From contig CAILMF010000055.1 in assembly GCA_903835235.1 (NCBI GenBank), positions 248,001-312,000 of the forward strand: a stretch of DNA of 64,000 bases, read 5' to 3'. The notes under the pieces are model-generated. The model did no database searches. It was not told the DNA's origin and was given only the letters and a program-made list of their open reading frames with translations. Of the stretch, positions 8,670-27,927 are shown in pieces; position 1 is the first letter of the stretch, and every line of letters starts with the position of its first letter. The DNA is from an uncultured Rhodospirillales bacterium. GTDB taxonomy: Bacteria > Pseudomonadota > Alphaproteobacteria > Acetobacterales > Acetobacteraceae. Both the position numbers and the translations under genes were made by a program.

Positions 8670-9446
8670 TTACCACCCGAACCACCCAAGAAGGCCAGAG
8701 CTTTTGTTTAAACAAGTTGGCACATCTGCCGTAAATGGGATTGAACCATTGTTGGTGAGAGTGAAGGCGTTGGCGGTGAGGTCTGCGAGAGTGTTGCTGA
8801 GAGACCATGAGCCAACAAGGTTAGGTTCAGAACCGAGGAATGTGTAGCAGTAGTAGCTTGATATCGTTGCAGCGGACAATTCAGTGTTGAAGACTTCTGC
8901 CTGGGAGAGCTTACCTGCGAAAGTCGTCCAGGTTGCGTGTGCGTCTCCACCTATTTGGAAGGGCTGTGTTGTGAGCGTAGCAGTGCCACCTGTGTTTGCG
9001 GTCTGAGTAGCTCCCTGCTGTGCGCCATCAATGTAGAACTTGGTGTTTCCGTTGACTGAGTTATACGTCATGCAGGTCTGGTGCCATGAACCAGTTGCGA
9101 GGGTGCCTGATACACGGGCGAATGTACCACCTGCGCCAAAGGTGCCTCCCATTTGGAGCGTTGGTGTTCCTGTTAAATCCTCATAGACGAAGTACCACGC
9201 CTTTTGTCCTGAGTTGTCGTACATGTTCATAAGGCCATACTGTGCGCTTGCCGTTGGCTGAGTGGTTACGTTCGTCCATATACACGCTGAGAAGCTAGAG
9301 CCAGAGAAGTTGAGTGTTGAGTTATACGCCCGAGAGAACCACATGGTTGTACCCGAGAGAGAGGCTGACTGCGTAGGAGCCGCAAACACGGGGTTTGCTA
9401 GGAATAAGGTGAGGAAGATAGTAAGTAATGTGAGCAGTTTTTTCAT
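8670..9446 (-). CDS. Secreted-type LamG/concanavalin-like fibre protein, 258 aa
   Basis: The start ATG 9446 (MKKLLTLLTIFLTLFLANPVFA) gives a textbook signal peptide and follows the preceding stop by one base (TAAT-ATG). The mature part is a LamG-like jelly roll: QSASLSGTTMWFSRA, FSACIWTNVTTQ, WYFVYED, WHQTCMTYNSVNGNTKFYIDG, then LVGSWSLSNTLADLTANAFTLTNNGS. Such domains bind glycans. In a phage late operon it should be a tail or head fibre, so the signal peptide is unusual. The final residues GLLGWFGW are aromatic. Confidence 0.65.
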   Translation of the reverse strand: MKKLLTLLTIFLTLFLANPVFAAPTQSASLSGTTMWFSRAYNSTLNFSGSSFSACIWTNVTTQPTASAQYGLMNMYDNSGQKAWYFVYEDLTGTPTLQMGGTFGAGGTFARVSGTLATGSWHQTCMTYNSVNGNTKFYIDGAQQGATQTANTGGTATLTTQPFQIGGDAHATWTTFAGKLSQAEVFNTELSAATISSYYCYTFLGSEPNLVGSWSLSNTLADLTANAFTLTNNGSIPFTADVPTCLNKSSGLLGWFGW

Positions 9447-9447
9447 A

Positions 9448-12210
9448 TTAGTATCCAAGTGATGCGCCTACTCCAAAGATGTTGACGGTAGTGGTTGCGG
9501 TTGATGTGCCCTGTGTGCCGAGGAACGCATACGCATCGCATTTGTTTGCGGTTGTGGTCTGCGTGGGTTGACCATTTGCTCCCCAGTTCACGCCCGAGAA
9601 GGTAAGCGCACCTGCCGTTGCGCCTGGATTGCAGACCATGAGGCGAAGCGTTGCGCCATTCTTTGCGTTTGCAAATGAGATGGTAGTAGCAGAGGTGCCG
9701 AGGTTGTGGAGCTGTTGTGTGCCTGAGTTCCAGTCAATAACCTGGGTTGTGGACGTACCAACTGTTGAGGCCAAGCGGTTTTCCCATGTCTGGAGAGAAC
9801 CACCGTTCGTAACGGTTACGAGAGTTGTGGTGCCTGATGCAGTTGAAGAACCAATCATTAGGAGGTTCTGGTTTGTGTCGCCGTTGTTTGCATGAATAGA
9901 GAGTGTGGCTGATGGTGAGGTTGTTCCTAGACCAGTATTGCCTGAACCAACCACGAGAGCGGCAGGGGCCGTAATGGTCACGTTTGTACCCGCAATAGGT
10001 GCGCGAGGAATATAGACCGTGGTAGCACTCGTGAGAGTCTTACTGGTGGTTGCCGTAAAGGTTGGTGCGCCAAATACACTCCAGGTAAGAGCTGAAGGAG
10101 ACTGACTCATGATAGGGCTTGTGGTTGCTGAGACTTCGAGTGCGCGGTAGTCGTAGGTCTGTGTGAGCGTTGGGTCATTGTAGATACCGCGAGTAATGCC
10201 GTTTGCAGTACCAGTCTGGTTTACGCCAGACATATTGTGAAGTGCAGTGAATATACCTGTTCCACTGCTCACAACATAGTTGTCGGTAATGCGAACCATA
10301 TCTGGGAAGCCAGTAGTGGTAATGCGGTTTGCGGTGTTGTTGCTAAGATAAATAGCAGAACCAGCAAAGTTTCCTGTGAGATTGCCTCCAAGAGTAAGAC
10401 CAGTACCACCGATGGCGGTAACATTTCCAGAGTTACCAACTGTCACACTTGAGTTTGCAGTGAGGATTGAACCCGAAACCGTACCACTAGAGGTGATATT
10501 TCCGCTGTTGGTAACGACACCCGTGTTGCTGACACTAAAGAGCGTGGTGGTTGCACTTGCGGTTGATGAGCCAATAGCAAAAAGGGTTGTGTTAGTGTCT
10601 CCCGCAAACGCATGTACAGATAGTTTTGAGTAAGGCGTTGTTGAGGCGATACCCACGTTGCCAGTTGTACTGTCCACCCACACTCCACTTTTAGCAGCAC
10701 TTGCGCCGTACATAAGGTTTATACCTGAACCAGTGGTTGGTGAGGCTGAAGTAGTGCCTTTTAGGGTAAGGGTCGAAACTGCGTTAGCACCTCCTTGAAG
10801 GATTGAGGCAGCCAATGAAGCTGTGTTGGTGTTTCCGTAGGTGACAGGATTGTTGCGGCTTTCAGTGATGAAGCCGTTAGAGAAGTTCACAGAAATGTTG
10901 TTGAGGGTGTTTATTGCGCCCGTTGAGCTGACGGCAAAGGCACCATTTGCAGCGGTAACAGCACCATCATTTCCTACCGCAAAGAGCGTGGTGGTTGCAG
11001 TCGCAGTTGATGAGCCAATGGCGAAGAGGGTGTTGCTCACATACTGCGCGGTTGATGAAGCGTGGATAGAGAGGAGTGCAGAAGGAGATGATGAGCCAAT
11101 GCCAAAGCCCGTGTTGGCCCAGCGAGTGAGTTCTTGGCCGCCCACGATGGCGTTGATGTTGCCGGCAACACCTGCGCCAAAGCCCGTAGTGGTGTCGCTT
11201 CTGTTAGGAAGAATGTTTGGTGCAGTAACAGAAGTACCTGCAAGATTGAGAATTCCTGGAGCGCCCGCAGTATTGCCCAATAAGCCACTTGAGCTGATGT
11301 TAAAACGGTTAGTTCCAGTTGTAGTGAATACTAGGGTTGAACCGACCAAACCAATACCTGAGTTAGTCGAGCCTTGGAAGGTATAGGTTGGGGTGCCTGA
11401 TGGGAAGGTTGCTGCTGCGACCTGGCCGTTGTTGTCAACCGTAAACAGCGTGGTGGTTGCTGTCGCGGTTGATGAACCTATCGCAAAGAGGATAGCGTTG
11501 AGGTCGGTAGCGTTGGCGTGGACGCTGAGGGGAGCGTAGGGTGTGGTTGATGCAATGCCATGGAAGCCAGCGGGAGAGAGGAAGAGGGTTGAGGTGCCTG
11601 CGGCTGTGTTGGTGCCTGAGAAGTAGGGAAGCTGCCCTGTGGTGCCAGTGAGGGATGCGCCGCCACCAGAGTACTGAGGGATGTTGAGGGTGTTCGCTAT
11701 GAGCGTAGCCGCACCTGATGAACCCGTTGTCGTGAGGGTGATAGGGGCTTGGTAGTCGGTGCCCGCGACTGCTGAACCAACAGCACTGGTGCCATTGCCC
11801 TTGAGGATGCCTGTGAGGGTCGTAGAGGCGGTGCCGCCACTTGCTACCTCAAGCGGTGTGCCGAGGTGGAGGGTGGAGATGGTAGAAGATGCTCCTGAGA
11901 GAAGCCCTTGCACAAAGTTGAGTACGGTTGTGGTGGCGTTGCTTGGGAATGGGTAGCTGAAAGAAGCCCCGCCGCCACCACTTCCACAGGATGAGCCAGA
12001 TGAGGTGATCCAACCATTTGATCCAACAGACAAACACCCTGTCGTGGACGATGCTAAACCAGGGATCATCAAACCGTAACTCGAATTGATGGGCTGCAAA
12101 TATGATCCGCTAGATGTTTTCCATTGATTGAGCTGCTGTATCCCCTGCGTTTGTGCATGAGCGGTAAAAGCAAATACAAATAGGAATAATGCGATTGATA
12201 GTTTTTTCAT
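9448..12210 (-). CDS. Large repetitive Ser/Thr/Ala-rich tail fibre-like protein with signal peptide, 920 aa
   Basis: MKKLSIALFLFVFAFTAHAQ is a signal peptide. The rest is low-complexity beta-rich sequence. Four copies of a block with the order P-[YS]-[AS]-x-LS[VI]HA, IGSST-A-[TS]-[AG]-TTTL, then V-x-N-G, lie at roughly residues 220, 375, 525 and 775. The C-terminal 100 residues (WNSGTQQLHNLGTSATTIS onward) form a different beta domain. It is probably a trimeric fibre. The combination of signal peptide and this repeat style is one I associate with Patescibacteria-type sequences. The stop-start overlap with the upstream gene is ATGA. Confidence 0.6.
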   Translation of the reverse strand: MKKLSIALFLFVFAFTAHAQTQGIQQLNQWKTSSGSYLQPINSSYGLMIPGLASSTTGCLSVGSNGWITSSGSSCGSGGGGASFSYPFPSNATTTVLNFVQGLLSGASSTISTLHLGTPLEVASGGTASTTLTGILKGNGTSAVGSAVAGTDYQAPITLTTTGSSGAATLIANTLNIPQYSGGGASLTGTTGQLPYFSGTNTAAGTSTLFLSPAGFHGIASTTPYAPLSVHANATDLNAILFAIGSSTATATTTLFTVDNNGQVAAATFPSGTPTYTFQGSTNSGIGLVGSTLVFTTTGTNRFNISSSGLLGNTAGAPGILNLAGTSVTAPNILPNRSDTTTGFGAGVAGNINAIVGGQELTRWANTGFGIGSSSPSALLSIHASSTAQYVSNTLFAIGSSTATATTTLFAVGNDGAVTAANGAFAVSSTGAINTLNNISVNFSNGFITESRNNPVTYGNTNTASLAASILQGGANAVSTLTLKGTTSASPTTGSGINLMYGASAAKSGVWVDSTTGNVGIASTTPYSKLSVHAFAGDTNTTLFAIGSSTASATTTLFSVSNTGVVTNSGNITSSGTVSGSILTANSSVTVGNSGNVTAIGGTGLTLGGNLTGNFAGSAIYLSNNTANRITTTGFPDMVRITDNYVVSSGTGIFTALHNMSGVNQTGTANGITRGIYNDPTLTQTYDYRALEVSATTSPIMSQSPSALTWSVFGAPTFTATTSKTLTSATTVYIPRAPIAGTNVTITAPAALVVGSGNTGLGTTSPSATLSIHANNGDTNQNLLMIGSSTASGTTTLVTVTNGGSLQTWENRLASTVGTSTTQVIDWNSGTQQLHNLGTSATTISFANAKNGATLRLMVCNPGATAGALTFSGVNWGANGQPTQTTTANKCDAYAFLGTQGTSTATTTVNIFGVGASLGY

Positions 12211-13085
12211 GATTGCATTAAATGTTGTATGTCTACTGAAGGTTGAGTTTGGGTCGCAGATTTAACTGATCGTTGTACCGGAAAGCTTAACTCTTGGCTG
12301 TTGATAACTTCGGTAATGCGCTTCTCCATCTCCATTACGGAATGGCTGATCTCCTGGCGCAGCATGTCGAGCGTTGCCCCGGTGTCCGTGGCCCGGCGCT
12401 GATCGAGGGCGTGGATCGCTTCAGATAGGGACGCGAATCCTTGTGCCAGGTCGGTAAGGTCCACCTTCTCAGGTTCGGGAAGTGCGTCCAGGGTCGCCTG
12501 GATACGTTTGAGGCGGTCAATGACCGATGAGAGGTCAGTCTCCTTCGGAAGCTTGCGAGATAGGTCGTCCAGGGCAAAGAGAATGTGCTCGGTGTCCAGC
12601 TCCTTCGGGATGCGGTTCACCTCGCGTTGTATGGCTCCGATGGCACCTAGCACCCCATCAAAGGGCTTGAGCTGGGTGCTGAGGCGGGTATCAAGCTCCT
12701 CTGCCACGATGTGACGCAGCTCGCGGTAATCCACCCCACCGCCACCGACAAAAAGCTCTGAGACAGAGTTTTTGACTAAGAAGTACTGCTCTTGCTCTTC
12801 ATAGTCAGTTGACTTCGTGGTGTAACCACTATCGGTGTAGACCGTGGCAACGGCAACGATGTTTCGACCATAGCCTGATGGATCAGATGGTGCTTGTGTT
12901 GTAGTCGTATAGAGACGGGTATTCGTGGTGGAACGAGTAAGAGGCAGTGTGCTGAGCACTGCCCCAGTTCTAATGTCATACACTACCGCTTGCACGTAGT
13001 AGGTCGTGCTATCGGTGTGATTGCGGATGAAATAGAAAATGTCGTACGGGTCAGAAGGAGAAATCTGACTTGGGTGAAGCTGCAT
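12207..13085 (-). CDS. Putative tail/fibre-associated protein with coiled coil, 292 aa
   Basis: The N-terminal 110 residues look like a beta sandwich (DPYDIFYFIRNHTD, YYVQAVVYDIRTGAVL, YGRNIVAVATVYTDSGY). From about residue 125 the protein is a long coiled coil (RELRHIVAEELDTRLS through MEKRITEVINSQEL). This suits a stalk linking a particle-bound head to a fibre. It begins 26 nt after a TAGTGTTACTAC promoter-like site, has no SD, and overlaps the next gene by 4 bp (ATGA). Confidence 0.5.
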   Translation of the reverse strand: MQLHPSQISPSDPYDIFYFIRNHTDSTTYYVQAVVYDIRTGAVLSTLPLTRSTTNTRLYTTTTQAPSDPSGYGRNIVAVATVYTDSGYTTKSTDYEEQEQYFLVKNSVSELFVGGGGVDYRELRHIVAEELDTRLSTQLKPFDGVLGAIGAIQREVNRIPKELDTEHILFALDDLSRKLPKETDLSSVIDRLKRIQATLDALPEPEKVDLTDLAQGFASLSEAIHALDQRRATDTGATLDMLRQEISHSVMEMEKRITEVINSQELSFPVQRSVKSATQTQPSVDIQHLMQS

Positions 13086-13111
13086 AATTGTAGCCTATCA
13101 AGCCACCCTAG

Positions 13112-13123
13112 GTAGTAACACTA
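13112..13123 (-). promoter_or_regulatory. Late promoter-like motif (copy 1)
   Basis: Minus-strand TAGTGTTACTAC ends 26 nt before ATG 13085. It matches four other copies in the late region. TGTTACTAC reads as an extended -10 (TG-N-TACNAC). The TAG is also the stop codon of the upstream gene. Confidence 0.6.
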
Positions 13124-13621: not shown

Positions 13622-13652
13622 AAGATTTATTTATTAGCTTCCAAGCTCCTCC

Positions 13653-13688: not shown

Positions 13689-14270
13689 TTATATGCTTTG
13701 GAATACAGCGCTACATGAACCAGTTGGAGAGAACGTACCCGTGCCTCCACTCTGTCCCATAACAACATACGTGGATGGTGATATGACAGAGTTTTGGTTT
13801 CCAGGATGCCAGTCAAGCAATCCCTGAGCACCAGATGCAATTGATCGCGTTGCGATGAGAGATGTCGTCGCAAAAGCGGTAGTTGAAGTTGCTAGTGTCA
13901 ATAGAGATGCTGTTGTGGTTGCACTGGTCACACCAGTGAAGCTTTCCAATGTGCTCGTACTCGTTGGTGATGAAAGTCCACAAGGAGTAGTAGAGGCTTG
14001 GTTCAGTGAGGTGCTGCGCACTACCGTTGTGGTGATTCCATTTTCGGTAATACTTGATGACGTAACGAGATTCCCGCTAGCGTCAAAATAGGCTTGCTGT
14101 GTCGAACCGAAATATAAGATGTTGGAGAACCAGTTTACTGAACCGTCCTGGTGTCCTACTGGAGACACCGCACCTGTTGGGTGGAGCACCAAAGGACGCG
14201 CCAAGATAAATCCTAGTCCCAACAGCGCCAAGGCGATAACGCCGAGAATGATGTTACGTGCTGTGGTCAT
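13689..14270 (-). CDS. Late protein with N-terminal membrane segment and Ser/Thr-rich region, 193 aa
   Basis: The N terminus (MTTARNIILGVIALALLGLGFILARP) is a signal anchor or uncleaved signal. The mature part contains SVNWFSNILYFGSTQQAYFDASGNLV, then the Ser/Thr/Ala lattice TSTSTLESFTGVTSATTTASLLTLATSTTAFATTSL, and ends with two Cys-containing short strands. The lattice style is shared with the fibre at 9448-12210. A membrane-anchored protein directly after the capsid gene is unusual. The function is unknown. Confidence 0.5.
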   Translation of the reverse strand: MTTARNIILGVIALALLGLGFILARPLVLHPTGAVSPVGHQDGSVNWFSNILYFGSTQQAYFDASGNLVTSSSITENGITTTVVRSTSLNQASTTPCGLSSPTSTSTLESFTGVTSATTTASLLTLATSTTAFATTSLIATRSIASGAQGLLDWHPGNQNSVISPSTYVVMGQSGGTGTFSPTGSCSAVFQSI

Positions 14271-14279
14271 AAAGATTTA

Positions 14280-15605
14280 TTAAGCGTGGACGTTAGAGTA
14301 AGTTGTGATACTTGATGAGCTGACATCAAGAGCGAGGTCAATGATTGCGCGAGCCTGATCGATGAAGACTTTGTTGTCGTAGACCGTCCACATGACGTAA
14401 TCGCGGGCAATAGAGTTTGATACAGGGTTCTCGTAAATATCAGGGTCTTTGCGGACTGCAAGAGAGATATTCTTCGCAACCATGAAGATCGAGTGAACTT
14501 GCTGCTTTGCAGTAGTCCAAAGGTTTGCAGCGTTGGTGAGGGTTGATGAGACCGTCACTTTGCCCGCACCCTTAATAATGATACTCGTGCCTGTTGCTGA
14601 GGATGTTGCTGTAAGGCCGTGCAACGCATCACTCTTTTTGATAGTGAAGCCATTTTCACTGATGGTGTTGGATGCACCAAAGCCGTTGTAACCAGCGTTA
14701 GTAGAATCTGCCACAGTGGTAGTTGGTGCGTTTAGGAATGCTGCGAGGTTGGTGTTTGTGAGTGCAACGGTCGAAGCGATCTTTACCTGTCCAGCTGTGG
14801 TGCCCGCGTCAACAGTCGTCTTGAACGTGATGACAACACCCTTAATGGTGATGGTGTCACCGTCAGTTGGATTGACTGAGAGAGCCAAGCGAGCTGAGAA
14901 TGGAAGGTTATTTGATACAAAGGTATTGAAGTTTCCAAACTGGCCTACATAGCCGTTGGTGGTCACTTCATCGCCCTTGTTGGTATTTCGAGCCATAAAG
15001 TAGAGCTGGATGACCGTCCACACCTGTGGAGGGATAACCCATGTCAACATACCTCCGTAATCTTCGTAAGGAAGTTTACCGAAGCGCATGTTGTTCACAT
15101 ACACCACGTTGGTGCCCATGAACTTTTCCATTGCGATCACTGGAAGGTTCGCGATATTAGCGATTGACGCAACAATACCGTCACCTGCGGTGCCGCCGAT
15201 ACTGCCGTTGTCGATCACTGAGCCTGCGCTTGAGTACGCTGCTTTAAGCGTATCTGCGTCAATTTCAGTGTAAATCGCATTTGAGAGCTGCGTACCGTAG
15301 CTCTTGGTGGTATTAAGATCGGTGTGTAGAACCTCGGTAGCTACAATACGTACTGAGGCTTCCTTTTGCTTGCTGATTGTGAATGTCTCATTTGCCTCAG
15401 CATAGTTCTGAGTAGAATACCCACCTGATGAAGATAGGTCGTTGGCAAAGATTGGGTTTGAACGATAACGGCGGTTTACCGTATCACCCATTTTGAGGCC
15501 GGCAGAAAACTGCAAGTCCGCAATAACAGGGTAGATAGGCATTGACCAATTAGACTTTTGAAAGTCTGAGGTCCATACCTGTTTATAGTTAAATGTATTG
15601 GCCAT
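14280..15605 (-). CDS. Major capsid protein (HK97-fold-like) with an insertion domain, 441 aa
   Basis: It lies between a scaffold-like gene and small structural genes, with the usual length. The N-terminal part (FNYKQVWTSDFQKSNWSMPIYPVIADL) and C-terminal part (KNISLAVRKDPDIYENPVSNSIARDYVMWTVYDNKVF) fit the outer arms of an HK97-like capsid protein. Residues about 235-360 (NPTDGDTITIKGVVITFKTT, AGQVKIA, NLAAFLN) form a separate beta-rich insertion, probably on the capsid surface. The upstream sequence is AACTTAAT-ATG with no SD. The assignment rests on synteny and sequence style. Confidence 0.75.
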   Translation of the reverse strand: MANTFNYKQVWTSDFQKSNWSMPIYPVIADLQFSAGLKMGDTVNRRYRSNPIFANDLSSSGGYSTQNYAEANETFTISKQKEASVRIVATEVLHTDLNTTKSYGTQLSNAIYTEIDADTLKAAYSSAGSVIDNGSIGGTAGDGIVASIANIANLPVIAMEKFMGTNVVYVNNMRFGKLPYEDYGGMLTWVIPPQVWTVIQLYFMARNTNKGDEVTTNGYVGQFGNFNTFVSNNLPFSARLALSVNPTDGDTITIKGVVITFKTTVDAGTTAGQVKIASTVALTNTNLAAFLNAPTTTVADSTNAGYNGFGASNTISENGFTIKKSDALHGLTATSSATGTSIIIKGAGKVTVSSTLTNAANLWTTAKQQVHSIFMVAKNISLAVRKDPDIYENPVSNSIARDYVMWTVYDNKVFIDQARAIIDLALDVSSSSITTYSNVHA

Positions 15606-15628: not shown

Positions 15629-16456
15629 TTACTGCGATCTGCGCACTTCGTAGGTAGACTTTGGGCGGAATATAGCTTTTTGCGCTTGCTCTGGTGTGAC
15701 TTTCCCCGAAGAGAAGTCAACCTCTGTTTCATGCGCCTCAGATATATTGTGGTCGCCACTCTCAAAGGAAGGTTTTTTTGGAGATACAAGCTTCGCTAAG
15801 TCCGCCTGCTTCTTCCAAACAATATATTCAACCTCCTTGTCGTGAAACTCTTTCGTGTGTGCCAACTTTACAAGTTCATCCATGACTATCTTTAATTCGG
15901 CATCATCGTGGATGGTGAGGGTAGTTTTGACGTAGGGTGCAGTTTCCCGGATCGCTTTGTCCTCCTCGGTCTGCTTTGTAGCAGCTCGGGAAGCGCGCCA
16001 GTCAGCCAGCTCCTCAGGTGTCATACCTTCTGACTGCGGCAGTTTCGCTAAGATGATCCCTGTCAGCTCTTCCAGGCTCTCAACCGGTACATCGTACTTT
16101 GCGGCATATTCCGCCAAATCTTTTGCTGCTTCGGTTTTCTCCGCTGGGGTTACTGCGTCATCCTTCTTATCGATAAGCGCTTGAAGCTCGGCAGCTTTCG
16201 CCTCTGCGGCATCAGCTCGTGTCTTCTCCGCTTCAGCTAGTGCTTTTGCATCCTGCGCCTCTACCTTCTTCTCCTTGTAATCGTCGTATATAGACCGCTG
16301 TTTTTTGGGTAATGTGTCGGTAGGGGGCGTTTCCTCCTCGGGCTTTTTCTCCTCTGTAGGTGCTGGCTCCGGGGTAACAGATTCCTCTACCTGCTCCCCT
16401 TCCGGTGTGGTTGTTTCTGGCTCTGCACCTTCAGGGTAGTGTTTGTCTTCATCCAT
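15629..16456 (-). CDS. Capsid scaffold-like protein, 275 aa
   Basis: The protein is very acidic and helical. The N-terminal 60 residues are Glu/Pro/Thr-rich (EPETTTPEGEQVEESVTPEPAPTEEKKPEEE), followed by a long coiled coil (EKKVEAQDAKALAEAEKTRADAAEAKAAELQAL), a helical middle, and a basic C terminus (PKSTYEVRRSQ) of the kind that touches capsid protein. It lies immediately upstream of the capsid gene. ATG 16456 (MDEDKHYPEG) and ATG 16465 are both possible; neither has an SD. Confidence 0.75.
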   Translation of the reverse strand: MDEDKHYPEGAEPETTTPEGEQVEESVTPEPAPTEEKKPEEETPPTDTLPKKQRSIYDDYKEKKVEAQDAKALAEAEKTRADAAEAKAAELQALIDKKDDAVTPAEKTEAAKDLAEYAAKYDVPVESLEELTGIILAKLPQSEGMTPEELADWRASRAATKQTEEDKAIRETAPYVKTTLTIHDDAELKIVMDELVKLAHTKEFHDKEVEYIVWKKQADLAKLVSPKKPSFESGDHNISEAHETEVDFSSGKVTPEQAQKAIFRPKSTYEVRRSQ

Positions 16457-16587
16457 ACGTTGCATAAGATAGCCCCTGCCGGGGGATAGGTGTTACCGCG
16501 CCTATACGGTTGCTCTGATAAAGCCGCAGAGCACGGGAAGCGACTAGCGCTTATGAGGTCCACGAGTGTATCGCGGACCTTAAAGAA

Positions 16588-16875: not shown

Positions 16876-17205
16876 ATTAGCTAGATCAGCGTCAAGTTGA
16901 CTTTCGATTGCTGCAAGCTCCTGGTCAAAGTCTCTGGCAACGATCCTCAAGAACCAGCTCCGGGCCTCGATGACATTCCACAGCTCGTCTCGTGCCTCGG
17001 GAGAGAGGCTTCGCACAGTGGCAAGCTTCTTTCGGCAGACAAGAATATCGGTGCGGCAGAGGTCAACAAGCTCCTGGGTCTCAGGAAGCATCGCATAATT
17101 TTTGTTGCGAAGAAGAGCCGAGATGCGCTGTTGCTCGGCCTCGATCTTTTCAAAGTCCTCGGGGTAGAGTTCCCGCACCTTAGCTAGTTTCTCTTCTATG
17201 CTCAT
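16873..17205 (-). CDS. Helical protein of unknown function, 110 aa
   Basis: It is almost entirely helical, with coiled-coil stretches (IEEKLAKVRELYPEDFEKIEAEQQRISALL and FDQELAAIESQLDADL). It contains two Cys residues in LCRTDILVCRKK. Its start overlaps the end of the portal gene by 4 bp (ATGA-type), so the two are coupled. It may be a head-assembly accessory protein; this is inference. Confidence 0.5.
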   Translation of the reverse strand: MSIEEKLAKVRELYPEDFEKIEAEQQRISALLRNKNYAMLPETQELVDLCRTDILVCRKKLATVRSLSPEARDELWNVIEARSWFLRIVARDFDQELAAIESQLDADLAN

Positions 17206-19229
17206 GCCATTTGTTGTTGATCCTGGTTGATGATCGAAGCGGGATTAGGTGCGATAGGGGATACGGGTGCGCCACCTGGTGCGGGCTTTACGGGAGATGC
17301 GGAGGCGAGAGCTGCCTCTGCTGCGGCATCAATCTTTGCCTTTCGCATCATGTTCTCGCTCACAATGTCACCATGGGAAATAATGAAGTCCATAAGAGTT
17401 GTGTACTTTTTATGTCCCAACGATGATCGGTTATTGGTTGCGAAATCATGGATTATCTGAAGGAAGAGGGTTGTAGCACCGTAGAATTGATCAGGCTTAG
17501 CGCCATGCTGTACGGCTTGGATCGCTTCGTGTGCGCGAGCCACCTCAATCATGTTTCCATAGTTCTTCGTATCCATAGCAATGTCTATGGTCTGTGGGTC
17601 AATCTCTGCGCCATCCTTGAGAAGCTCGGATACAAGCCACTTTGTATTTACCTGTGGTGCAAGCGCTGGGTTTTGGGCGATGACATTGAGGGTATCAACC
17701 TTCGCCTTCTTCTTGAGCTGGGAGTTTTTCATATCGAGAGCTGATGCGACAACGCGAACATCAACATCGGCGTAGAGGTCCAGGTCGGTGCGGCGAATGA
17801 CGCGATCCCAATCCTCACCCATTGCACCAAGCTTCCTGAGCGCCTTTGAGGCCGGCATGTGGTCCTTGAGGCCCTGGATGAAGAGCTTGCCCACCTCGCC
17901 CATTGCCTCGGTGTATGGAGATGCGCGTAGGAGGAATCGCTTGGATAGAGCCTGCTGCTCGGCCAAGGCCACTGTAGCGCGCTTGGAGACGCCCTGAGCG
18001 CCACCCATAGCCAGGTCAGTCACCCCTACGTCACGTCCAGCAGTGCTTTGCATCCACTCAATGAGGTTTATGGTGCCGGATATCTCTTGCGTCTCGAAGG
18101 TGAAGATACCGTCCCGGATTGACTTACCAGCTGGGACGTGGACTGCAACCAGAGCATCGGGACGGGTCTGCGCTTGGTCGAGTTGTGCCACGTCCTTAAT
18201 CATATCCACGTCATATCCACGGGGACTGAAGTTATGCTTCTCACGGTTCGTCAACTCCTGGTTAAATAGGGTATGTGTTGCGTCTGCTACACCATACATA
18301 TCATCGGCATAGCTCTTAGAGAGTACGTTGCGGTTATCCTCGTGCGTTGCCCATGATATCCATGGATCAATCTCGCCTGAGCATACTTCTGCGAATGGTG
18401 CGAAGCGCAACCACGTTTGATACCAAGGTGAGAACGTGATGTACCACTTCTTACCACCCATGGTGATCCGCATCTCAACAAGCTTGAAAAGTTGCTCGCC
18501 TATGTAGTCGTTCTGCTCGGGTGAAAGGCCCATTGCCTTAAACTTACCAAGGGCTGCTTTGCTAGTGTCATCTGCAAAAGTAGGATCGAAGTCAGTGCTG
18601 GATGCATTCTTCAGTAGCTTATTAACCTGCTCTTTGTTGTATGAACCTAAGCGAAGGTCACTCTCCGTGCGGAGGATGTTTTGGCGTCCATTGTAGAGGT
18701 GGAGGCCGAAGATAGGACCGCCGGTTGGTTGAAAGATGGCGTCTTCAAGCTCATATATATCAAAGTTATTTTGGTACTCAGGGGTGGACACTGCGTAGTT
18801 CATCATGAAGCCACGGCCAGAGAAAAGTGCATTAGAACGGTCCTGGCGGGTCTTCTGAGCAAACTTCGCATTAGGAGCCTGCGACGTGCTCTCCATATCC
18901 CACAGCGTGCCGATCTTTTGAACGGGTATATAGTCTGCTGGCTCTTGGTCGTGAAACTCTAGGGCTAGATCGTCATTGAACGCCGCCATGAGCGTGTCCA
19001 TACCGCCCGAGAATGTAGGAAGAACAACATTGAAAGGTTGACGAAACTTCTTAGGTACCTTTCCGGCGTAAAGATCGCGGTATTTCTGTATCTGGTTGAG
19101 ACGCGGCTGTTTAAAACGATTGACGTTGGCGACAATTTGAATGCAGCGGCGCAACGCTTCCTCCGCCATTTCATTGACGCCCTTATTTACGATGGAAACA
19201 GAGGAGAGGCTTTCCTGCTCGGATGACAT
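17202..19229 (-). CDS. Portal protein-like, 675 aa
   Basis: The length, the position two small genes after the large terminase and before scaffold/capsid, and the sequence layout fit a podovirus-type portal. Visible features are a helical N terminus (QPRLNQIQKYRDLYAGKVPKKF), a central alpha/beta body (FSPWYQTWLRFAPFAEVCSGEIDPWISWATHEDNRN), a helical crown-like region near residues 420-560, and a low-complexity Ala/Pro C terminus. It would form the dodecameric DNA-entry ring. The start lies 26 nt after promoter-like copy 3 and has no SD. I find no single diagnostic motif. Confidence 0.7.
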   Translation of the reverse strand: MSSEQESLSSVSIVNKGVNEMAEEALRRCIQIVANVNRFKQPRLNQIQKYRDLYAGKVPKKFRQPFNVVLPTFSGGMDTLMAAFNDDLALEFHDQEPADYIPVQKIGTLWDMESTSQAPNAKFAQKTRQDRSNALFSGRGFMMNYAVSTPEYQNNFDIYELEDAIFQPTGGPIFGLHLYNGRQNILRTESDLRLGSYNKEQVNKLLKNASSTDFDPTFADDTSKAALGKFKAMGLSPEQNDYIGEQLFKLVEMRITMGGKKWYITFSPWYQTWLRFAPFAEVCSGEIDPWISWATHEDNRNVLSKSYADDMYGVADATHTLFNQELTNREKHNFSPRGYDVDMIKDVAQLDQAQTRPDALVAVHVPAGKSIRDGIFTFETQEISGTINLIEWMQSTAGRDVGVTDLAMGGAQGVSKRATVALAEQQALSKRFLLRASPYTEAMGEVGKLFIQGLKDHMPASKALRKLGAMGEDWDRVIRRTDLDLYADVDVRVVASALDMKNSQLKKKAKVDTLNVIAQNPALAPQVNTKWLVSELLKDGAEIDPQTIDIAMDTKNYGNMIEVARAHEAIQAVQHGAKPDQFYGATTLFLQIIHDFATNNRSSLGHKKYTTLMDFIISHGDIVSENMMRKAKIDAAAEAALASASPVKPAPGGAPVSPIAPNPASIINQDQQQMA

Positions 19230-19519: not shown

Positions 19520-19696
19520 CTAATCAATAGTGGGTTTTTCATACGGCGGTTGTCTGTATGCAACGCTTTTTCGCCAATCATGCCTACACATAGGGCATTG
19601 CGGTAGGATAGACATTTTGTAGGCCCAATCACATTTCTTGCAGTTATTCCATCCTTCTGGGAGGCGTGGGTGTTGGGGGGGTGTTGCGGGTATCAT
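19520..19696 (-). CDS. Tiny zinc-ribbon protein, 58 aa
   Basis: ATG 19696 overlaps the terminase stop (ATGA). The protein contains CKKCDWAYK and CPMCRHDW, a C-x2-C...C-x2-C ribbon of about 20 residues, flanked by a Pro-rich N terminus and a basic C terminus. Translational coupling to terL and the intact Cys pattern support it as real. The function is unknown. Confidence 0.6.
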   Translation of the reverse strand: MIPATPPQHPRLPEGWNNCKKCDWAYKMSILPQCPMCRHDWRKSVAYRQPPYEKPTID

Positions 19697-21381
19697 AGCT
19701 GGGGATTTTCATATTCGCCCTGCTGGTAGATGGTGAGGGTCTCTTGAGGCTTGGCGTACTTTCGCATTGCATAGGCTATTGCACATGCCATGAGTAGATC
19801 GAAGTGACGAGTTGAATGCCCTTGCCTGCTGCTGCCGAGTTCATCGGCATCGCTATAGGTGAAACTTCGCATCTCCTTGAGAATGCGAATATCTTGGATG
19901 ACTAGAAGGCCATCTTCCACTCCGGTCTTGAGGTCGTTGAGTATGGTGTATTTAGTAGCGTGATTCGTCTCCCATCCAAGCTCCCATGTGGTAGGGGGCG
20001 CATCGGATGCACGATCAAGCGGTACCTGCCGATAGATCATCTTCACCGAATAGATCATCTTGAGCGTCGTGAGGCATGATCCACCACTCTCGCTGTTTTT
20101 CTCGGGGCCAATGAGACAGGTGCCGAACATCAAGCCCTGCCGCTTCAGCTCGTGGGCAAACTGGTCGGCCGGAATCTGATTGTTTGCATAGCTGCCCACC
20201 TGGCGCGCGGGATAGGCGGTGAAGTCGATGCACACAGAGGTTGAGTGGTCCCCACCGTTCCCCTTCCCCGTGTCAGCGCCAAGTGCGTAGGCGTGGGATG
20301 GATTAAACTCCTGCCAGACATGGAAGCCAGCGCGGTTCTCTATCGGGTCCTGGCACTGCGCTATGAGGCGGTCGATCACCTGGCGGTCGAAAAAGGCCGA
20401 TCCGGCTGCGGCTGGGTCAAGCAGCATGTCCACCTCGTAGACGCGACGGCCGCCGGCGTTGAGTTCTCGCTTCTTCGCCTCAAGGCTGATCTTTCGCCTA
20501 GTGGGGTCGGTGATGTCCTGGTTCGCTGCGACGGCCTCTACGTCGGTTTTGACGTACTTGTCGGGCCACGAGATTGTCCCGTCCTTGGCGATGACCGGGA
20601 CGAAGCGCACACGGCCTCCTGAGCCCTCTATGGAGCGTTTCAGGTAGCCCATGACGCCATCCTCGATGACGAAGTTGCCGAGGTTGAGGGAGACGCCATG
20701 CCCCGCCATACCGCCCTTCGCCTCGTCTATGAGGGAGATGATCTTCTCGGTGACAGGTGGAGAGATGGCGGTTATGGAGTTCTCAACATCGTCGCGTAGA
20801 ACGAAGTCGGGTCGGTTCTGCTGATAGAGACGGCCACGCATAGGTGTAAGCGCTGTGTGCGCCTCCACACGGATACCGTTAGTGGTAATGAAGTTTGATA
20901 TGCGCTTCTGTTGCGCTTGATCTTTGGTTCTCGGCTGGTTGTAGAGGTGGCCGAAGTCGTCAAGAATCTTGTCATTGGTCTGAAGCTCTGTAACCACGTC
21001 AAAGAGAATGCTCTCCGCATTCGTTTTGTCGTAACTGTCCACGTTGATATACCGACGTTCTCCCCAATGAGATACATCGGTTCCTTGAGCCCGTAGTTCA
21101 TCAATGACAGTCTTGCGGGCAATGAGCCATGCGAGGCCGATCTTAGCGTGAGAGGTTTTGGAACCCTCACGGTAGATGATCCACCCAACGTCCTTCACGC
21201 GGCCATACACCAAATCCTCTAGGTCTTGATCGAAGTCCTCGTGGAAAGGAGCTGCCTTATAGGTAAAATACTTTAGGAAATAGTAATACTTGAATAGCGT
21301 GAACGATTTTCCGCACGCATATACTCGTTCATCGCGGGAGCCGCTGACAAGTAGATCAATTTTTTCCTTTGTTAATTTCAT
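19693..21381 (-). CDS. terL: Terminase large subunit, 562 aa
   Basis: The protein has a packaging ATPase followed by a nuclease. The Walker A-like REGSKTSHAK is at residues 71-80 and Walker B DFVLRDDVE at about 192-200. The RNase H-like nuclease shows Asp 370 (ALGADTGKGNGG), Glu 427 (LIGPEKNSESGG) and Asp 528 (RHFDLLMACAIAYA). It docks on the portal, cuts concatemers and pumps DNA into the head. It follows the small-subunit-like gene by 20 bp and is coupled to the tiny zinc ribbon downstream. There is no SD. Confidence 0.9.
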   Translation of the reverse strand: MKLTKEKIDLLVSGSRDERVYACGKSFTLFKYYYFLKYFTYKAAPFHEDFDQDLEDLVYGRVKDVGWIIYREGSKTSHAKIGLAWLIARKTVIDELRAQGTDVSHWGERRYINVDSYDKTNAESILFDVVTELQTNDKILDDFGHLYNQPRTKDQAQQKRISNFITTNGIRVEAHTALTPMRGRLYQQNRPDFVLRDDVENSITAISPPVTEKIISLIDEAKGGMAGHGVSLNLGNFVIEDGVMGYLKRSIEGSGGRVRFVPVIAKDGTISWPDKYVKTDVEAVAANQDITDPTRRKISLEAKKRELNAGGRRVYEVDMLLDPAAAGSAFFDRQVIDRLIAQCQDPIENRAGFHVWQEFNPSHAYALGADTGKGNGGDHSTSVCIDFTAYPARQVGSYANNQIPADQFAHELKRQGLMFGTCLIGPEKNSESGGSCLTTLKMIYSVKMIYRQVPLDRASDAPPTTWELGWETNHATKYTILNDLKTGVEDGLLVIQDIRILKEMRSFTYSDADELGSSRQGHSTRHFDLLMACAIAYAMRKYAKPQETLTIYQQGEYENPQL

Positions 21382-22278: not shown

Positions 22279-24666
22279 CTAGTTCGATTCGTAAGATTGC
22301 AGTGCGCGTTTTACATATAGTTTGCGAGAATTGTTTGCCTCAACAATCTTTCTAGCTATGATTTTTTTATTCCCCCATCCAGTCATACCTTGAGCCTGTA
22401 AGGCGGCAATTCCAGAAGCATCAACGCCGCCTCTTGCTAGGAGAGAGATTTTTTGATTCATATACTGATCCTGTAGGTGGGGACTGTTAAGAAACTCCTT
22501 TGGGGTTACTGTTCGTCCTAGAAAGCGGATAGCATTTTCTTTCAGCTCACCTTCTGTAACCTGATAAGCGCCTAGATCGCGCCCAAGAGTCTTTGAGCCA
22601 GATTTTTTAGAGAATGTGTAGGGGTCAGTTTTAACGCCGCCGGTCTCATTCTTCATGAGCGCCTTTCTTAGTCTGTTTATATTTACGCCGCCTATGACAT
22701 GTTCTTGTGTATTGTCGTCTATCGCGCTGATCGTGGTGCCTCGGTGGCCCGCATACAGTCCAGCTGCGAGTCCGGTAGAGACTGCACCAGCTCCAGTTAT
22801 TGTGCCGATGGTAGCCTTCCCAGAGTTGTTCTTTGAGTTTACAGGAAGGGTGGTATCATTTGATGATGGCGCATGAGGCTTATCGCCTGAGTTAAATATG
22901 CTTTTTATAGGATTCTTATTTGTCGTAGGCTGCATTCTTGGTTGGGTACTCGACTGACCCTCACCAGCTGCGCGTACCGGATGCGGTACGCTTTTTTCCT
23001 GTGAAAATGCTGGACCCATCCGCATTGTTGGGCCTGGGATCGTGCCTGGCTTTCCTGTTGGAAGGGCAAGACGATAGTTTGGCTGTGGCTGTGGGCGTTC
23101 GGTTGGTAGAACTCCACTGGTATCAGACACAATCTCTGGACCCAAGCGTGTTGCCGGCTGTTTGACGCGCAATAGGTTAGGGTCGGTTAGGGTGACATCT
23201 GCTCTTGGTGCCCCCACCTTTGCACCACGGCTTAATAGTGAAGCAATTGATCCTTGTGCCTTGCTCGATGTGATTGCTTTCTTGCCAAGAAGCATAGCGA
23301 TTGAATGAGGATCGGCAGGGATACCACTGGCAACGATCCAGTCGGTAAGTCCTACAATGTTATTCCCCACCTGTGCGCCCTGCTTCTTCGCAATGGCGTC
23401 AATGAGCATTTTCGCAAGCTGAGTCTCTTTGTTTAGATCACGAATGTTCTTAAAGCCAAGATTATCTGCGGTCTGCTGCTGCCAGCTTCGGATTGCGTTG
23501 TCGATGTTGTTTGCACGCTCAATGGGTGCGGATACGCCATCCTTTATGTAGTTAAGTTTGACGGTGCGCTCAAAGAGGCGCTTGGCCGCGTTGATCTCTG
23601 ATTGCGTTAGCCCTTCGCTCTGAGCCTTGCTGAGAAGCGCCTTTGCTGCGTCCAGGTAGGGAGATGGTGCCCCCTCTGCTGAGGTTGCTTCTGCGTGTCC
23701 TACAACGTCCTGTAGAGCTGTCTCCACGGTCTTGTTCTTATAGAGGCCCGGTAGCTTTTCAAGCGCATCATCTACCTGCTGTTTAGAATCACTGAAGCGC
23801 TGGAAGAGCTTGGCTGTCACCTCCTGGGTTGATCCATAGATGCCACGCTCATGGAGGTACTGGCCCGGTGTCGCACCACCTGCCATTCGGCTGAATGATC
23901 GAACATCGGAAGGGTTGATGCGCGCCACCTTGTTCATGAGTGTAATCGCCGTGTTGTCGGCTGCGGTTCCCATGGAGCGAGCTGCATCCTCTGCGGCCTG
24001 GACCGGATGCGTTGCGGCGTTAATCGCACCTGGCACACCTCGAACGGTCTTGCCACCGATGGGCACAGCAACGCCTAGGATGCTTCCTAGAGCGGTTCCT
24101 ACGAGTGTTCCCTCTGCTGTGCGTATACCGGTGTCCATCACGCCTGCGTTGTCCTGAAGGGCGCCGCCTGCTCCCTGTATAGCGCCAGCTATAGCACCTG
24201 CCTTGGCACCAGCTTTCACACCCTGCCAAAGCAAGCCTTTGAAGCCGGCCTTGGCGACATTCACTGCTCCGCCACCTCCTACTGCATTGGATGCAACGTC
24301 GAGTGCAGTGCCAGTTATATCCTTGGCCTTCTGTAGTGCGCTGCCTTCCATACCTACCGGCTTAGCGCTTCCAAGGTAGTCCCCATAGCTAACGGGAGCT
24401 GTTGGATCGTCGGGCATACCAACGGCAACTTTTCCTGCCTTAATGGCATTTGCACCTAGGCGCAGAAAAGGGCTTGCGACACCTCGAACAACGCTTTGAA
24501 CTAGGCCGGGGCCTTTCTGAGTTTGTACTTCTGGTGCCACACGATCCGCATACTGTGGGTATTTTGCGAGCATCTTCTGAGTAAGAGTCGCATTATCCAC
24601 GTTCGCATACGCAGGATACTTCGCCTTGATCTGCTCTGCGAATTGGTCAGGGGTTAGCTGTGACAT
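22279..24666 (-). CDS. Virion ejection/internal protein with C-terminal transglycosylase-like domain, 795 aa
   Basis: The N-terminal 200 residues include repeated short helices (AKYPAYANVDNATLTQKMLAKYPQYADR) and a long Ala/Gly-rich amphipathic region. The middle is helical and the linker is Pro/Gln-rich. The C-terminal 140 residues (LRKALMKNETGGVKTDPYTF, LGRDLGAYQVTEGE) resemble lysozyme/lytic transglycosylase folds, with Glu in KNETGG as candidate catalytic residue. Short-tailed phages eject such proteins to open peptidoglycan during DNA entry. The large size and Ala/Gly segments suit an ejection protein. Confidence 0.6.
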   Translation of the reverse strand: MSQLTPDQFAEQIKAKYPAYANVDNATLTQKMLAKYPQYADRVAPEVQTQKGPGLVQSVVRGVASPFLRLGANAIKAGKVAVGMPDDPTAPVSYGDYLGSAKPVGMEGSALQKAKDITGTALDVASNAVGGGGAVNVAKAGFKGLLWQGVKAGAKAGAIAGAIQGAGGALQDNAGVMDTGIRTAEGTLVGTALGSILGVAVPIGGKTVRGVPGAINAATHPVQAAEDAARSMGTAADNTAITLMNKVARINPSDVRSFSRMAGGATPGQYLHERGIYGSTQEVTAKLFQRFSDSKQQVDDALEKLPGLYKNKTVETALQDVVGHAEATSAEGAPSPYLDAAKALLSKAQSEGLTQSEINAAKRLFERTVKLNYIKDGVSAPIERANNIDNAIRSWQQQTADNLGFKNIRDLNKETQLAKMLIDAIAKKQGAQVGNNIVGLTDWIVASGIPADPHSIAMLLGKKAITSSKAQGSIASLLSRGAKVGAPRADVTLTDPNLLRVKQPATRLGPEIVSDTSGVLPTERPQPQPNYRLALPTGKPGTIPGPTMRMGPAFSQEKSVPHPVRAAGEGQSSTQPRMQPTTNKNPIKSIFNSGDKPHAPSSNDTTLPVNSKNNSGKATIGTITGAGAVSTGLAAGLYAGHRGTTISAIDDNTQEHVIGGVNINRLRKALMKNETGGVKTDPYTFSKKSGSKTLGRDLGAYQVTEGELKENAIRFLGRTVTPKEFLNSPHLQDQYMNQKISLLARGGVDASGIAALQAQGMTGWGNKKIIARKIVEANNSRKLYVKRALQSYESN

Positions 24667-24669
24667 AGG

Positions 24670-26301
24670 TTAGATACCGAGACCGAGAGGATCGGCATCG
24701 GATGATTTTGGCGCTGATAGATCACTCTTGCCGGCAGTTTTTTGCAAGTCTTTGTAGTCAGCAAGATTCTTGGTGATCGACTTGATAAGCTCGTCAATCT
24801 TATAGATGGCTGTATCGGGGGTATCGTTGAGGGTTGCGAGTATTTTCTTGTACTTCTCCTCGTCCTCCTTACGAAGCACACCGCCCTCAAGCGCCTTACC
24901 TACCGTCTGGCGTACTCGGTCAACGTCTGCCTGAAGCTGGCGAGCATCTGAGTATGGATTGAGCGCGGCAAAGCCCATGATAGGACCAAGCTTATCGGTA
25001 TTGCCCTGTATTTTAGCTCTAAGATCATTCAATGAAGTAAGTGCAAAGTCTGTTTGATTGATAGCGGTTATAGCGGTGTCTGAAAGAGGTTTTCCAAACG
25101 CATTAAAGCCAGATCGTGCTAGCTCGGGAGCGATAGCTGCCTTCTGAGTTGGGGTGATCTGGTTGAACAGCTCAGGGTTATCAAATACGCTTTGAGCAAG
25201 GGGGCTAAGGCCACTTGAACTTGTGCCACTGGTAGATGCAGGGTGGGTGCTAGCAACAGTCTTAACCTGTGACATATCACCATTCCAATTATCTGGAATG
25301 GCAATAAGGCTCTCCCCACTCTTGCTGTCTCCGATCTTCTGAAAGGTCGTGTAGTTCGGTGGGATATCCATAGGAAGGTCTAGCGTCTCAAATGACACCT
25401 TGCCCGTTACCGGGTTCTTGTATGCCTGCATGTACTTGTTACCCACACGGGTAGGGCTGCCCACAATCTGATCCTGTGGGCGATTGAGTGCGAAAATAGC
25501 GCGTAGAGCATCCTCTGAGCCTCCTGCGGCATCTAAGGCGTGCTGATATACCTGCGCGTTCTGTGGGTTGTTTTTAAACTGCTCGAAGTCAACAAGGCCA
25601 CCTGAAGCCATTTGCTTGAGGTCTGAGAGTGTCTGTGTAGTAGACTCTTTGCGGCGCGTGATGATGTCGTTCGCACTACGGTACGCATCCTCCTTCTGTG
25701 CGCGCGCTTCGGTCTCTGCATCGGCTGATATCTTTGAATAGATGCCTTGAAGTGCGACCGCGCGCTGTGCGTTTACCGCGTCGATAGCCTTCTGGTTTGC
25801 CGCTGATACCGTGTTGTCCGTACGAACCGCCTCGGTTGAACCAGAGAGGCCAGAGAGCACGGAAATAGAGTTGTTCTTGTTGAGGCGGTCCTGCCCTGCG
25901 GTGCGCTCACTCGCTACCTGGGTATCGTATTGGGCATTGGTGGCGTCAATGAGGGCCTGGGCGTCCTTACGCTTTTGCTCCGCAATCTGAGCGGCCGTCT
26001 GTGGGGCTTGGAAGGTGTCTAGGTAGCTCTGTGCGGGATCAGGCGTGACGGTGCGGCTGATGGGTGCACCGGCTGCCTGGAACTCGTTGATGCCCGTCTG
26101 GGGGTTCGTGACCCATGTGCCAGGCGTACCCGCTGCGTTGGCTCCTGAAGGGGCCTGGGAGGTCAGAGCGGCCCCCGAGTTGGGCGTAGTGATGCCGGGG
26201 CCGGCAGGGGAAGGTACGGGGCTAGGTGTAGAAGCTGGGGCGTCTGGGACGTACTTGAGCGTATAAGAGCCATCTGGTTGTTTCTCGTTTACGGTAGCCA
26301 T
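24670..26301 (-). CDS. Virion-associated helical protein, possible ejection protein, 543 aa
   Basis: The N-terminal 90 residues are Pro/Ser/Ala-rich and unstructured. Residues about 95-240 are strongly coiled coil (AAQIAEQKRKDAQALIDATNAQYDTQVASERTAG, KAIDAVNAQRAVALQGIYSKISADAETEARAQ), followed by mixed regions and a helical C terminus. It is adjacent (3 bp) to the muralytic ejection-like gene and lies between it and a Gly-rich secreted-type protein. It is not recognised. An internal core or tail-tip role is inferred from neighbourhood. Confidence 0.5.
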   Translation of the reverse strand: MATVNEKQPDGSYTLKYVPDAPASTPSPVPSPAGPGITTPNSGAALTSQAPSGANAAGTPGTWVTNPQTGINEFQAAGAPISRTVTPDPAQSYLDTFQAPQTAAQIAEQKRKDAQALIDATNAQYDTQVASERTAGQDRLNKNNSISVLSGLSGSTEAVRTDNTVSAANQKAIDAVNAQRAVALQGIYSKISADAETEARAQKEDAYRSANDIITRRKESTTQTLSDLKQMASGGLVDFEQFKNNPQNAQVYQHALDAAGGSEDALRAIFALNRPQDQIVGSPTRVGNKYMQAYKNPVTGKVSFETLDLPMDIPPNYTTFQKIGDSKSGESLIAIPDNWNGDMSQVKTVASTHPASTSGTSSSGLSPLAQSVFDNPELFNQITPTQKAAIAPELARSGFNAFGKPLSDTAITAINQTDFALTSLNDLRAKIQGNTDKLGPIMGFAALNPYSDARQLQADVDRVRQTVGKALEGGVLRKEDEEKYKKILATLNDTPDTAIYKIDELIKSITKNLADYKDLQKTAGKSDLSAPKSSDADPLGLGI

Positions 26302-26304
26302 GAG

Positions 26305-27927
26305 TTATTTTATTTGAAGAGTGACAACTGCGCCGGATGATCCCGCTGTTCCAGCACCACCACCGCCCGCTGCCGCTGCACCGCCAGCACCACCAGAAGC
26401 CTGTACTGTACCTGAGTTTGTATATGAGGTGAGGTAGCCAAGAGCAACGAGTCCACCACCACCTCCACCTCCACCTCCAGCTTGGTTTGCAGAGTTACCA
26501 GCAGCGCCAGTACCACCATTAGCGGTTATGCTGCCGGCTGCACCAACTGAGATGATATTAGCTATGATCTGAACGACGCCACCACCTCCACCTCCACCGC
26601 CACCTGAGCCGGTATTACCTGAACCACCACCACCGCCGCCACCTCCTGCGCCGCCATTTATGGCAAGGAATTGTGAGGTGCTGGTTGAGTAGGATTGTAG
26701 GAATGAGAAGCTAACCAGGTCGAGGAGGCGAGCTGCTGTTGCTGTTGCTGTCCCGGCCGATCCTGCTGCGCCGCCGGAAGACGATCCTCCTGCGCCGCCA
26801 CTTCCGCCCTTCGCATTGGCAATTGAGGCAGCGGAGACGCCCGCGCCGTTTGATGCACCGCCAGTAGCGCCAGCGGTTGATGTGCCCATTGAGGTGGATG
26901 AAGCAGCTAGGCCACCAATACCACCGGCCACACCAACGCCTGAAGTTCCCTGCTTACCGTTTCCACCATCGTTCTTTATGTTTCCGAGCACTGAAACGGT
27001 GCCCGTAGCAAAGATACGATATCCACCAGTGTAGAGCGTTACACCCTGGTTTACAGTGACATTCTGTGCATATAGGTCCTGAGTAAGCGTGGTTGTGGCA
27101 GAGTAGGTCTGTGGGCCATCTACTCCTGATCCAGTGATCGCATATGTCGCTCCAGCGATGCCGCCGTTGAATGTTGCTGAACCAGTGACGGTGATTGATC
27201 CACCGATAACCGTGTTATCAGTTACCGAAAGACCGCGAACGCTTACAGCGCCGTTGAAGGTCGATGTGGCTGCTGATGATGTTGCCGTTATGAAGCCGAA
27301 TGTTGGGGATGAAGTAGCAATAAGTGCTCCGGTGCCGTTGCCAGAGAGGTAGGTATATGCTGGGACGGATGTGAGGCCCGTGCCGCCAGCGGTTACGCCA
27401 ACTGGAGTGGAGCCAAATGCTGTCTTCTGTACAAAGCCAATGGTTGCAATGGCAGAGGTAGATGCGGTGCTAAAATCCTTGTCGTATGTGTAGTTGATGA
27501 TGTTTGGGATGCGGTCAACACCATTGAGGATGTTGGCAAGTATGTTGATGAGTGGGTAGTCAGTTATCTTGACGTTTGCACCCTTGCGATGTGCTGATTG
27601 AAGCGCCGTAACGCTCGTAGTGCCAGTAACAAAGCTAACGCCACGGGTAAGGCTCGTAACTGAGGTGCCCGAGATAGAGCCGCAGATGTACTCACTATCT
27701 GAACGGCCTTCGTCCACGGTAAAGCAGTGGTAGCCGGTCAACACACCTCCACCACGAAGACTGTTAGCCACCACGGTCATGCTGGTGTCTGTTGAGACAA
27801 TGCGGTCCTGAAGAGAGGTCTCGAAAAGCGCTTCACCGCCGGGTATCGTTGCCGCAGAGGCGGTATATCCAATGAGTAAAATAACCGCGAAAAATGCACC
27901 TATACCAGCGTAGATAAATTTTCTCAT
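26305..27927 (-). CDS. Gly-rich fibre-like protein with signal peptide, 540 aa
   Basis: ATG 27927 (MRKFIYAGIGAFFAVILLIGYTASA) starts a signal peptide; it lies 26 nt after promoter-like copy 4. The domain after it (LSGYHCF-like TGYHCFTVDEGRSDSEYICG, TSLTRGVSFVTGT, AHRKGANVKITDYP) is one I recall from Patescibacteria-associated sequences. A Ser/Thr/Ala lattice follows, then poly-Gly tracts (runs of 8-9 Gly) interleaved with Ser/Ala. It is probably a long fibre or adhesin. No SD is present. Confidence 0.6.
   Translation of the reverse strand: MRKFIYAGIGAFFAVILLIGYTASAATIPGGEALFETSLQDRIVSTDTSMTVVANSLRGGGVLTGYHCFTVDEGRSDSEYICGSISGTSVTSLTRGVSFVTGTTSVTALQSAHRKGANVKITDYPLINILANILNGVDRIPNIINYTYDKDFSTASTSAIATIGFVQKTAFGSTPVGVTAGGTGLTSVPAYTYLSGNGTGALIATSSPTFGFITATSSAATSTFNGAVSVRGLSVTDNTVIGGSITVTGSATFNGGIAGATYAITGSGVDGPQTYSATTTLTQDLYAQNVTVNQGVTLYTGGYRIFATGTVSVLGNIKNDGGNGKQGTSGVGVAGGIGGLAASSTSMGTSTAGATGGASNGAGVSAASIANAKGGSGGAGGSSSGGAAGSAGTATATAARLLDLVSFSFLQSYSTSTSQFLAINGGAGGGGGGGGSGNTGSGGGGGGGGGVVQIIANIISVGAAGSITANGGTGAAGNSANQAGGGGGGGGGLVALGYLTSYTNSGTVQASGGAGGAAAAGGGGAGTAGSSGAVVTLQIK

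Follow-up and report, generated by a model that had tools for sequence, protein, structure and literature searches.

A temperate phage genome in a tRNA-Thr gene

The window (the whole stretch of DNA analysed, 64,000 nucleotides) comes from a 399.5-kb contig of a 6.0-Mb genome and contains a 42.5-kb prophage at positions 972-43492. The prophage lies within a host tRNA-Thr gene and is flanked by a 45-bp att repeat, with host sequence on both sides and a tyrosine integrase gene directly inside the distal repeat copy (Table 1). Its G+C content is 52%, as against roughly 65-75% in the surroundings. The att repeat, the tRNA and the host DNA at both sides in a contig of this length make a chimeric assembly unlikely. 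A 16S fragment from this assembly shares 93.9% identity with Roseomonas marmotae and 90.4% with Acetobacter aceti, which places the host in the Acetobacteraceae.

Table 1. Features of the prophage and its integration site (window coordinates)
Feature	Position	Strand	Basis
Host tRNA-Thr(CGT); 3′ part (972-1016) is att repeat copy 1	942-1016	+	ARAGORN
Signal peptide and concanavalin A/laminin G-like lectin domain	8670-9446	-	PF13385 8e-19
Long fibre-like protein rich in S/T/A; signal peptide of cleavable type; motif QG..QL.QW in the mature protein	9448-12210	-	Sequence
Fibre repeat unit 4	9793-9933	-	
Fibre repeat unit 3	10513-10653	-	
Fibre repeat unit 2	10957-11103	-	
Fibre repeat unit 1 (GIASTTPYAPLSVHA...)	11419-11559	-	
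Virion-module protein, conserved; leader in 0 of 25 homologues	12207-13085	-	24 contigs
Membrane-anchored protein adjoining the capsid gene	13689-14270	-	Anchor in 13/13 homologues
Major capsid protein	14280-15605	-	PHROG 283 9.1e-5; 26 contigs
Probable scaffold protein	15629-16465	-	Position and charge; 21 contigs
Probable portal protein	17202-19229	-	Size and gene order; 23 contigs
Terminase large subunit (TerL)	19693-21381	-	PHROG 38 1.8e-21
Virion-module protein following the tail gene; leader in 0 of 21 homologues	24670-26301	-	Homologue comparison
Tail protein with a hydrophobic leader at the N-terminus, then a tail-barrel domain (27415-27852), an S/T linker and a glycine-rich end	26305-27927	-	
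Tail nozzle	27963-29858	-	AlphaFold2 pLDDT 86.7; Foldseek to Pa223, Sf6, P22 and T7 tails
Probable head-tail adaptor	29863-30558	-	Position before nozzle; 25 contigs
Replic_Relax protein (plasmid-type)	36937-37923	-	PF13814 7e-9
Two VirD4/TraG-like coupling-type ATPases (37992-40148, 40180-41592)	37992-41592	-	Conserved in near-complete relatives
Tyrosine integrase	42174-43307	-	PHROG 1 integrase 1.1e-54; relatives in 5 contigs
Att repeat copy 2, prophage end	43448-43492	+	Exact 45-bp repeat

Caudoviricetes markers are present in the large terminase and the major capsid protein; the capsid profile match is weak, and the gene adjoins scaffold- and portal-like genes. The probable portal has neither a profile match nor a match among phage records, though its size and gene order fit a portal, and the probable adaptor has no sequence match in the PDB. 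Because the nozzle, modelled with 25 homologues, matches the short-tail nozzles of Pa223, VP1, Sf6, P22 and T7 (Foldseek, E 1e-12 to 1e-16), the model suggests that the particle is most likely short-tailed. The phage resembles P22, Sf6 and T7 (nozzles gp10, gp8 and gp12) in its TerL, capsid and adaptor-nozzle gene order and in its predicted nozzle fold, whereas its portal, long fibre and tail protein have no sequence match in 50,697 phage records and no sequence similarity to Lederbergvirus (P22) or Autographiviridae (T7). For the nozzle, the sequence match to known phages is restricted to a 79-residue domain shared with the capsids of Maribacter phages. This small domain (nozzle residues 233-311) and the matching segment of the Maribacter phage major capsid protein have 45-47% identity, so that one module is reused in the nozzle and the capsid of unrelated phages. 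Searches of named phages with the fibre, tail protein and portal gave no match, the remainder being weak T4-type TerL matches and single-domain matches, and none of 384 further genomes from the host's class contained a TerL relative. With no whole-protein phage match and no TerL relative in these 384 genomes, an ordinary alphaproteobacterial podovirus is rejected, and the best matches were not confined to such phages. By these comparisons, the phage appears to represent an undescribed and unnamed family of short-tailed viruses with no whole-protein relative among named phages.

A plasmid-type cassette of a CHC2 primase, a Replic_Relax protein and two VirD4/TraG-like ATPases occupies positions 36126-41592, which is unusual for a tailed phage. 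The coupling-type ATPase and Replic_Relax are features of conjugative or mobilisable elements; no type IV secretion channel genes were seen among the scanned proteins, which cover the small ORFs in part. A VirD4/TraG-like ATPase occurs in every near-complete relative and Replic_Relax in several. The ATPase has counterparts of about 47% identity, across half its length, on Sulfitobacter and Methylomagnum plasmids, where Replic_Relax is present on the same plasmid. The cassette is otherwise found on plasmids, whereas in the window it belongs to a phage with a complete virion module. It is characteristic of the family and may reflect a plasmid-like phase. Defence against host restriction is the likely role of two further products, a DNA methyltransferase with an additional, possibly Mrr-like, C-terminal part (3728-5491) and an ArdC-type anti-restriction protein (31932-32900). 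The ORF at 35042-35587 consists almost entirely of short repeats of the VSGNAQV/FGDAWV type, and its other frames are open too.

Hydrophobic leaders in the virion module

The first-pass annotation of this DNA had described four proteins with signal peptides or membrane anchors, and the ORFs are present at the coordinates given there, with hydrophobic leaders on all four: the lectin-like protein, the long fibre, the capsid-neighbouring protein and the tail protein. By a hydropathy rule, used here rather than SignalP, each has Sec-type features (a positive start, a hydrophobic core and an AxA site or anchor), and a plausible AxA cleavage site ends three of the four leaders. Cleavage is expected between MKKLLTLLTIFLTLFLANPVFA and APTQ in the lectin-like protein, between MKKLSIALFLFVFAFTAHA and QTQG in the long fibre and between MRKFIYAGIGAFFAVILLIGYTASA and ATIP in the tail protein, while the capsid neighbour begins with an anchor, MTTARNIILGVIALALLGLGFILARP. 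The best uncharged 13-residue hydropathy is 2.6-3.0 in the four proteins, compared with at most 0.7 in the capsid, portal, TerL, nozzle and the product of 24670-26301. The Ser/Thr/Ala lattices remarked on in the same annotation are likewise real, with S+T+A at 35-41% and charged residues at 4-7% in the four proteins, compared with 20-31% and 15-26%, respectively, in that comparison set.

Wrong start codons are rejected as the source of the leaders. The lectin gene begins with ATG and has a TTG (9458) four codons upstream, and the tail protein gene begins with ATG and has a GTG (27963) twelve codons upstream. These alternative starts only lengthen the proteins, so that no choice among them strips a signal peptide, and homologues start at the same leader. 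Chance hydrophobic N-termini are rejected by counts across the family and by a control on known phages. Leaders are found in 37 of 39 complete homologues in the tail protein and capsid-neighbour slots, versus none of 201 in ten control slots that include the portal, capsid, scaffold, TerL, adaptor and nozzle; the corresponding Fisher p of 1.6e-41 is overstated, as the homologues are related and the counts are not independent events. Unlike the leader-bearing proteins of the window, the virion proteins of T7 and P22 lack leaders (0/23 flagged), and only Rz and the P22 holin score, as expected. A cleavable-type leader also begins the long fibre in all six phages compared (the window, L001, G002, G771, G772 and G784). 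The leader usually gives way to a Q/G-rich start and a motif resembling QL.QW. A lectin in viral contig G780 has a leader of the same type as that of the window. From these predictions, the leaders appear clearly restricted to adhesive slots.

Tailed phages are known to assemble in the cytoplasm, and the same is assumed of their fibres; our literature searches returned no validated exported tail fibre and nothing relevant on tail proteins with signal peptides. Filamentous phages have coat proteins with Sec signals that are assembled at the inner membrane, and this provides a working likeness for the window phage, which is itself not filamentous but a dsDNA tailed phage with a terminase, portal and nozzle. 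In our preferred reading, which we consider to have an even chance of being correct, the prophage is a temperate short-tailed phage from a family not yet described, carried in the tRNA-Thr of an Acetobacteraceae bacterium, and its leader-bearing adhesive parts would be targeted to the inner membrane or beyond it, reaching the particle at the envelope or during lysis. Proteins of the head, portal and nozzle lack a leader, and their synthesis and assembly would take place in the cytoplasm in the usual way. The putative adhesive outer parts, namely the long fibre, the lectin, the tail protein and the capsid neighbour, with their conserved Sec-type leaders or N-terminal membrane helices, would end up in the inner membrane or on its far side, and the exported parts would be added to the particle at the envelope or upon cell lysis. 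We infer both the export of these four proteins and their place in the particle from sequence features, and assembly at the cell envelope is a reasonable extension of them.

The long fibre and the tail protein

The long fibre varies strongly among relatives and contains four copies of a 47-residue unit, GIxSTTPYxxLSVHA..LFAIGSSTAxATTTLFxVxNxGxV. In the host class, this unit occurs in one of 190 genomes, the window's own, and in two of 192 genomes of the phylum of nzgw467, a Patescibacteria bin considered below. In both Patescibacteria genomes, it lies in chromosomal genes amid cellular neighbours of the prfB/ftsE/ftsX/pyrG type, the best copy being GVGTTSPAAKLAVHAFAGETLTNNMLFSVASSTASATTTLFTVYNSGQ. 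A link between TSTATTTLF-style lattices and Patescibacteria, stated in the first-pass annotation, is thus borne out by two chromosomal genes, though such genes are uncommon. Their cellular setting would also fit a different role for the leader-bearing proteins, as surface adhesins or lectins shown by the lysogen or infected cell, that is, late-expressed cargo amid virion genes and not parts of the particle. The leader on the lectin domain and the high variability of the long fibre are consistent with such a role. However, the tail protein is strictly co-conserved with the nozzle, its domain resembles phage tail domains and the glycine-rich ends are typical of phage adhesins, and we consider the cargo explanation quite unlikely.

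The tail protein gene lies directly after that of the nozzle. Its GYHCFTVDEG/ANVKITDYP domain, singled out in the first-pass annotation, is a real, conserved block of 146 aa in 22 viral contigs, and no PHROGs family contains it. The protein model has a mean pLDDT of 71 overall and of about 84-95 across most of residues 41-120. The top structural match of its domain (Z 9.9 over 92 residues, 3.5 A) is a chain of 116 residues in the portal-tail complex of phage GP4, and tail-part domains of JBD30, Mystique, chi and lambda match at Z up to 8.4. Gly_rich_2 is found in 11 of the 22 homologues. On the basis of the model, the product is read as a putative adhesive tail protein attached beside the nozzle.

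This location also suits the main rival to export, in which the N-terminal helices belong to the particle, sit hidden at the nozzle mouth or in the capsid, and enter the host membrane upon adsorption to let DNA through, as has been proposed for membrane-active components of other short tails. The helix precedes a tail-type barrel, and the capsid-neighbour slot has an equally constant anchor. Outside the window clade, most tail protein homologues carry what looks like an uncleaved helix with few positive charges, joined to a proline-rich linker, and not a classical signal peptide. Against buried helices, the leaders of the long fibre and lectin are of the ordinary cleavable type, and the leader of the tail protein ends in an AxA site in both the window and L002. 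We judge this explanation unlikely and prefer export. A mixed case, with an exported long fibre and a particle-borne tail protein helix, is possible.

Relatives of the phage and their hosts

The virion module is found in about 25 contigs with the same gene order. Close relatives among viral contigs are L001, L002/G002 (42.5 kb) and L019, whose TerL, portal and capsid are 64-78% identical to those of the window, and about 20 others share, in unchanged order, the tail protein domain, the nozzle (37-61%), the adaptor, and the capsid and portal (about 35-44%). In nozzle, portal and capsid trees, the window and G002 (with L001 and L019 where present) form one clade, apart from a large clade with contig C28 of nzgw467 and from the group of an Acidobacteriota prophage. 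Viral contig G784 (L068-L070) carries complete tRNA-Arg(TCT) and tRNA-Met genes, and because the tRNA-Arg adjoins the integrase, it is probably part of an att site.

A genome search with a two-sequence alignment of the domain gave no matches, and a 23-row profile run against 84,980 species gave three further genomes; the third match, a 3-kb contig in a Cloacimonadota bin, is too short to trust. In a 103-kb contig of a Vicinamibacterales bacterium (Acidobacteriota), the module occupies 46.9-87.7 kb between 26-bp repeats, one of which ends a tmRNA gene, and this module is a real prophage in Acidobacteriota. In the 1.2-Mb MAG nzgw467, in which no 16S was found, module genes are carried by three contigs (C28, C19 and C20). 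This MAG is assigned to Patescibacteria (Paceibacteria) and has three predicted prophages (PMC12455944), with a reported mean size of 43.7 kb that is like that of the window prophage. Its contig C28 (L045) encodes the TerL, portal, capsid, anchor protein, adaptor, nozzle and tail protein homologue in the order of the window; unlike in the window, the nzgw467 anchors have no classical cleavage site. The Patescibacteria connection put forward for the GYHCFTVDEG/ANVKITDYP domain holds to the extent that the phage family is found in this bin. A second phage type in the Paceibacteria bin, L087 (G389:C20), has long collagen-like tail proteins of the GYTGATGYTG type and a distant nozzle homologue. 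On nzgw467 contigs C34 and C37, ATPases lie amid cellular genes and were rejected as marks of integrated phages.

Relatives with very different hosts, as the first-pass annotation had anticipated, are therefore seen as integrated prophages in Acetobacteraceae and Acidobacteriota, and by co-binning in a Paceibacteria MAG. Because family members occur with Acidobacteriota and Paceibacteria too, the virion design appears to have crossed phyla. Infection of Patescibacteria by the family is inferred from co-binning in nzgw467. No host junction was seen on C28, C19 or C20, a host test with the G784 tRNA-Arg gave equally weak matches in both phyla (77-78% identity), and the domain occurs in only one of 380 genomes of that phylum. 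These observations are consistent with ordinary phages of free-living bacteria whose link to Patescibacteria is an artefact of binning or composition. However, the module recurs on three separate contigs of a small bin, three prophages are reported for nzgw467 by an independent study (PMC12455944), and the fibre unit is present in other Patescibacteria chromosomes, leaving an artefact with a sizeable but less than even chance. We consider the broadest version of our proposal rather unlikely, namely a temperate short-tailed family that spans Alphaproteobacteria, Acidobacteriota and Patescibacteria, with receptor-binding fibres that are obligatorily Sec-exported and attached outside the cytoplasm, a route that would be new for tailed phages.

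The retention of predicted leaders on adhesive tail proteins only, over three phyla, would point either to assembly on the envelope side or to a device by which short tails insert into membranes. The family also makes it possible to test how phages of free-living bacteria are linked to those found with the ultra-small Patescibacteria, whose viruses are poorly known, and Acetobacteraceae would provide a cultivable type of host in which to study it.
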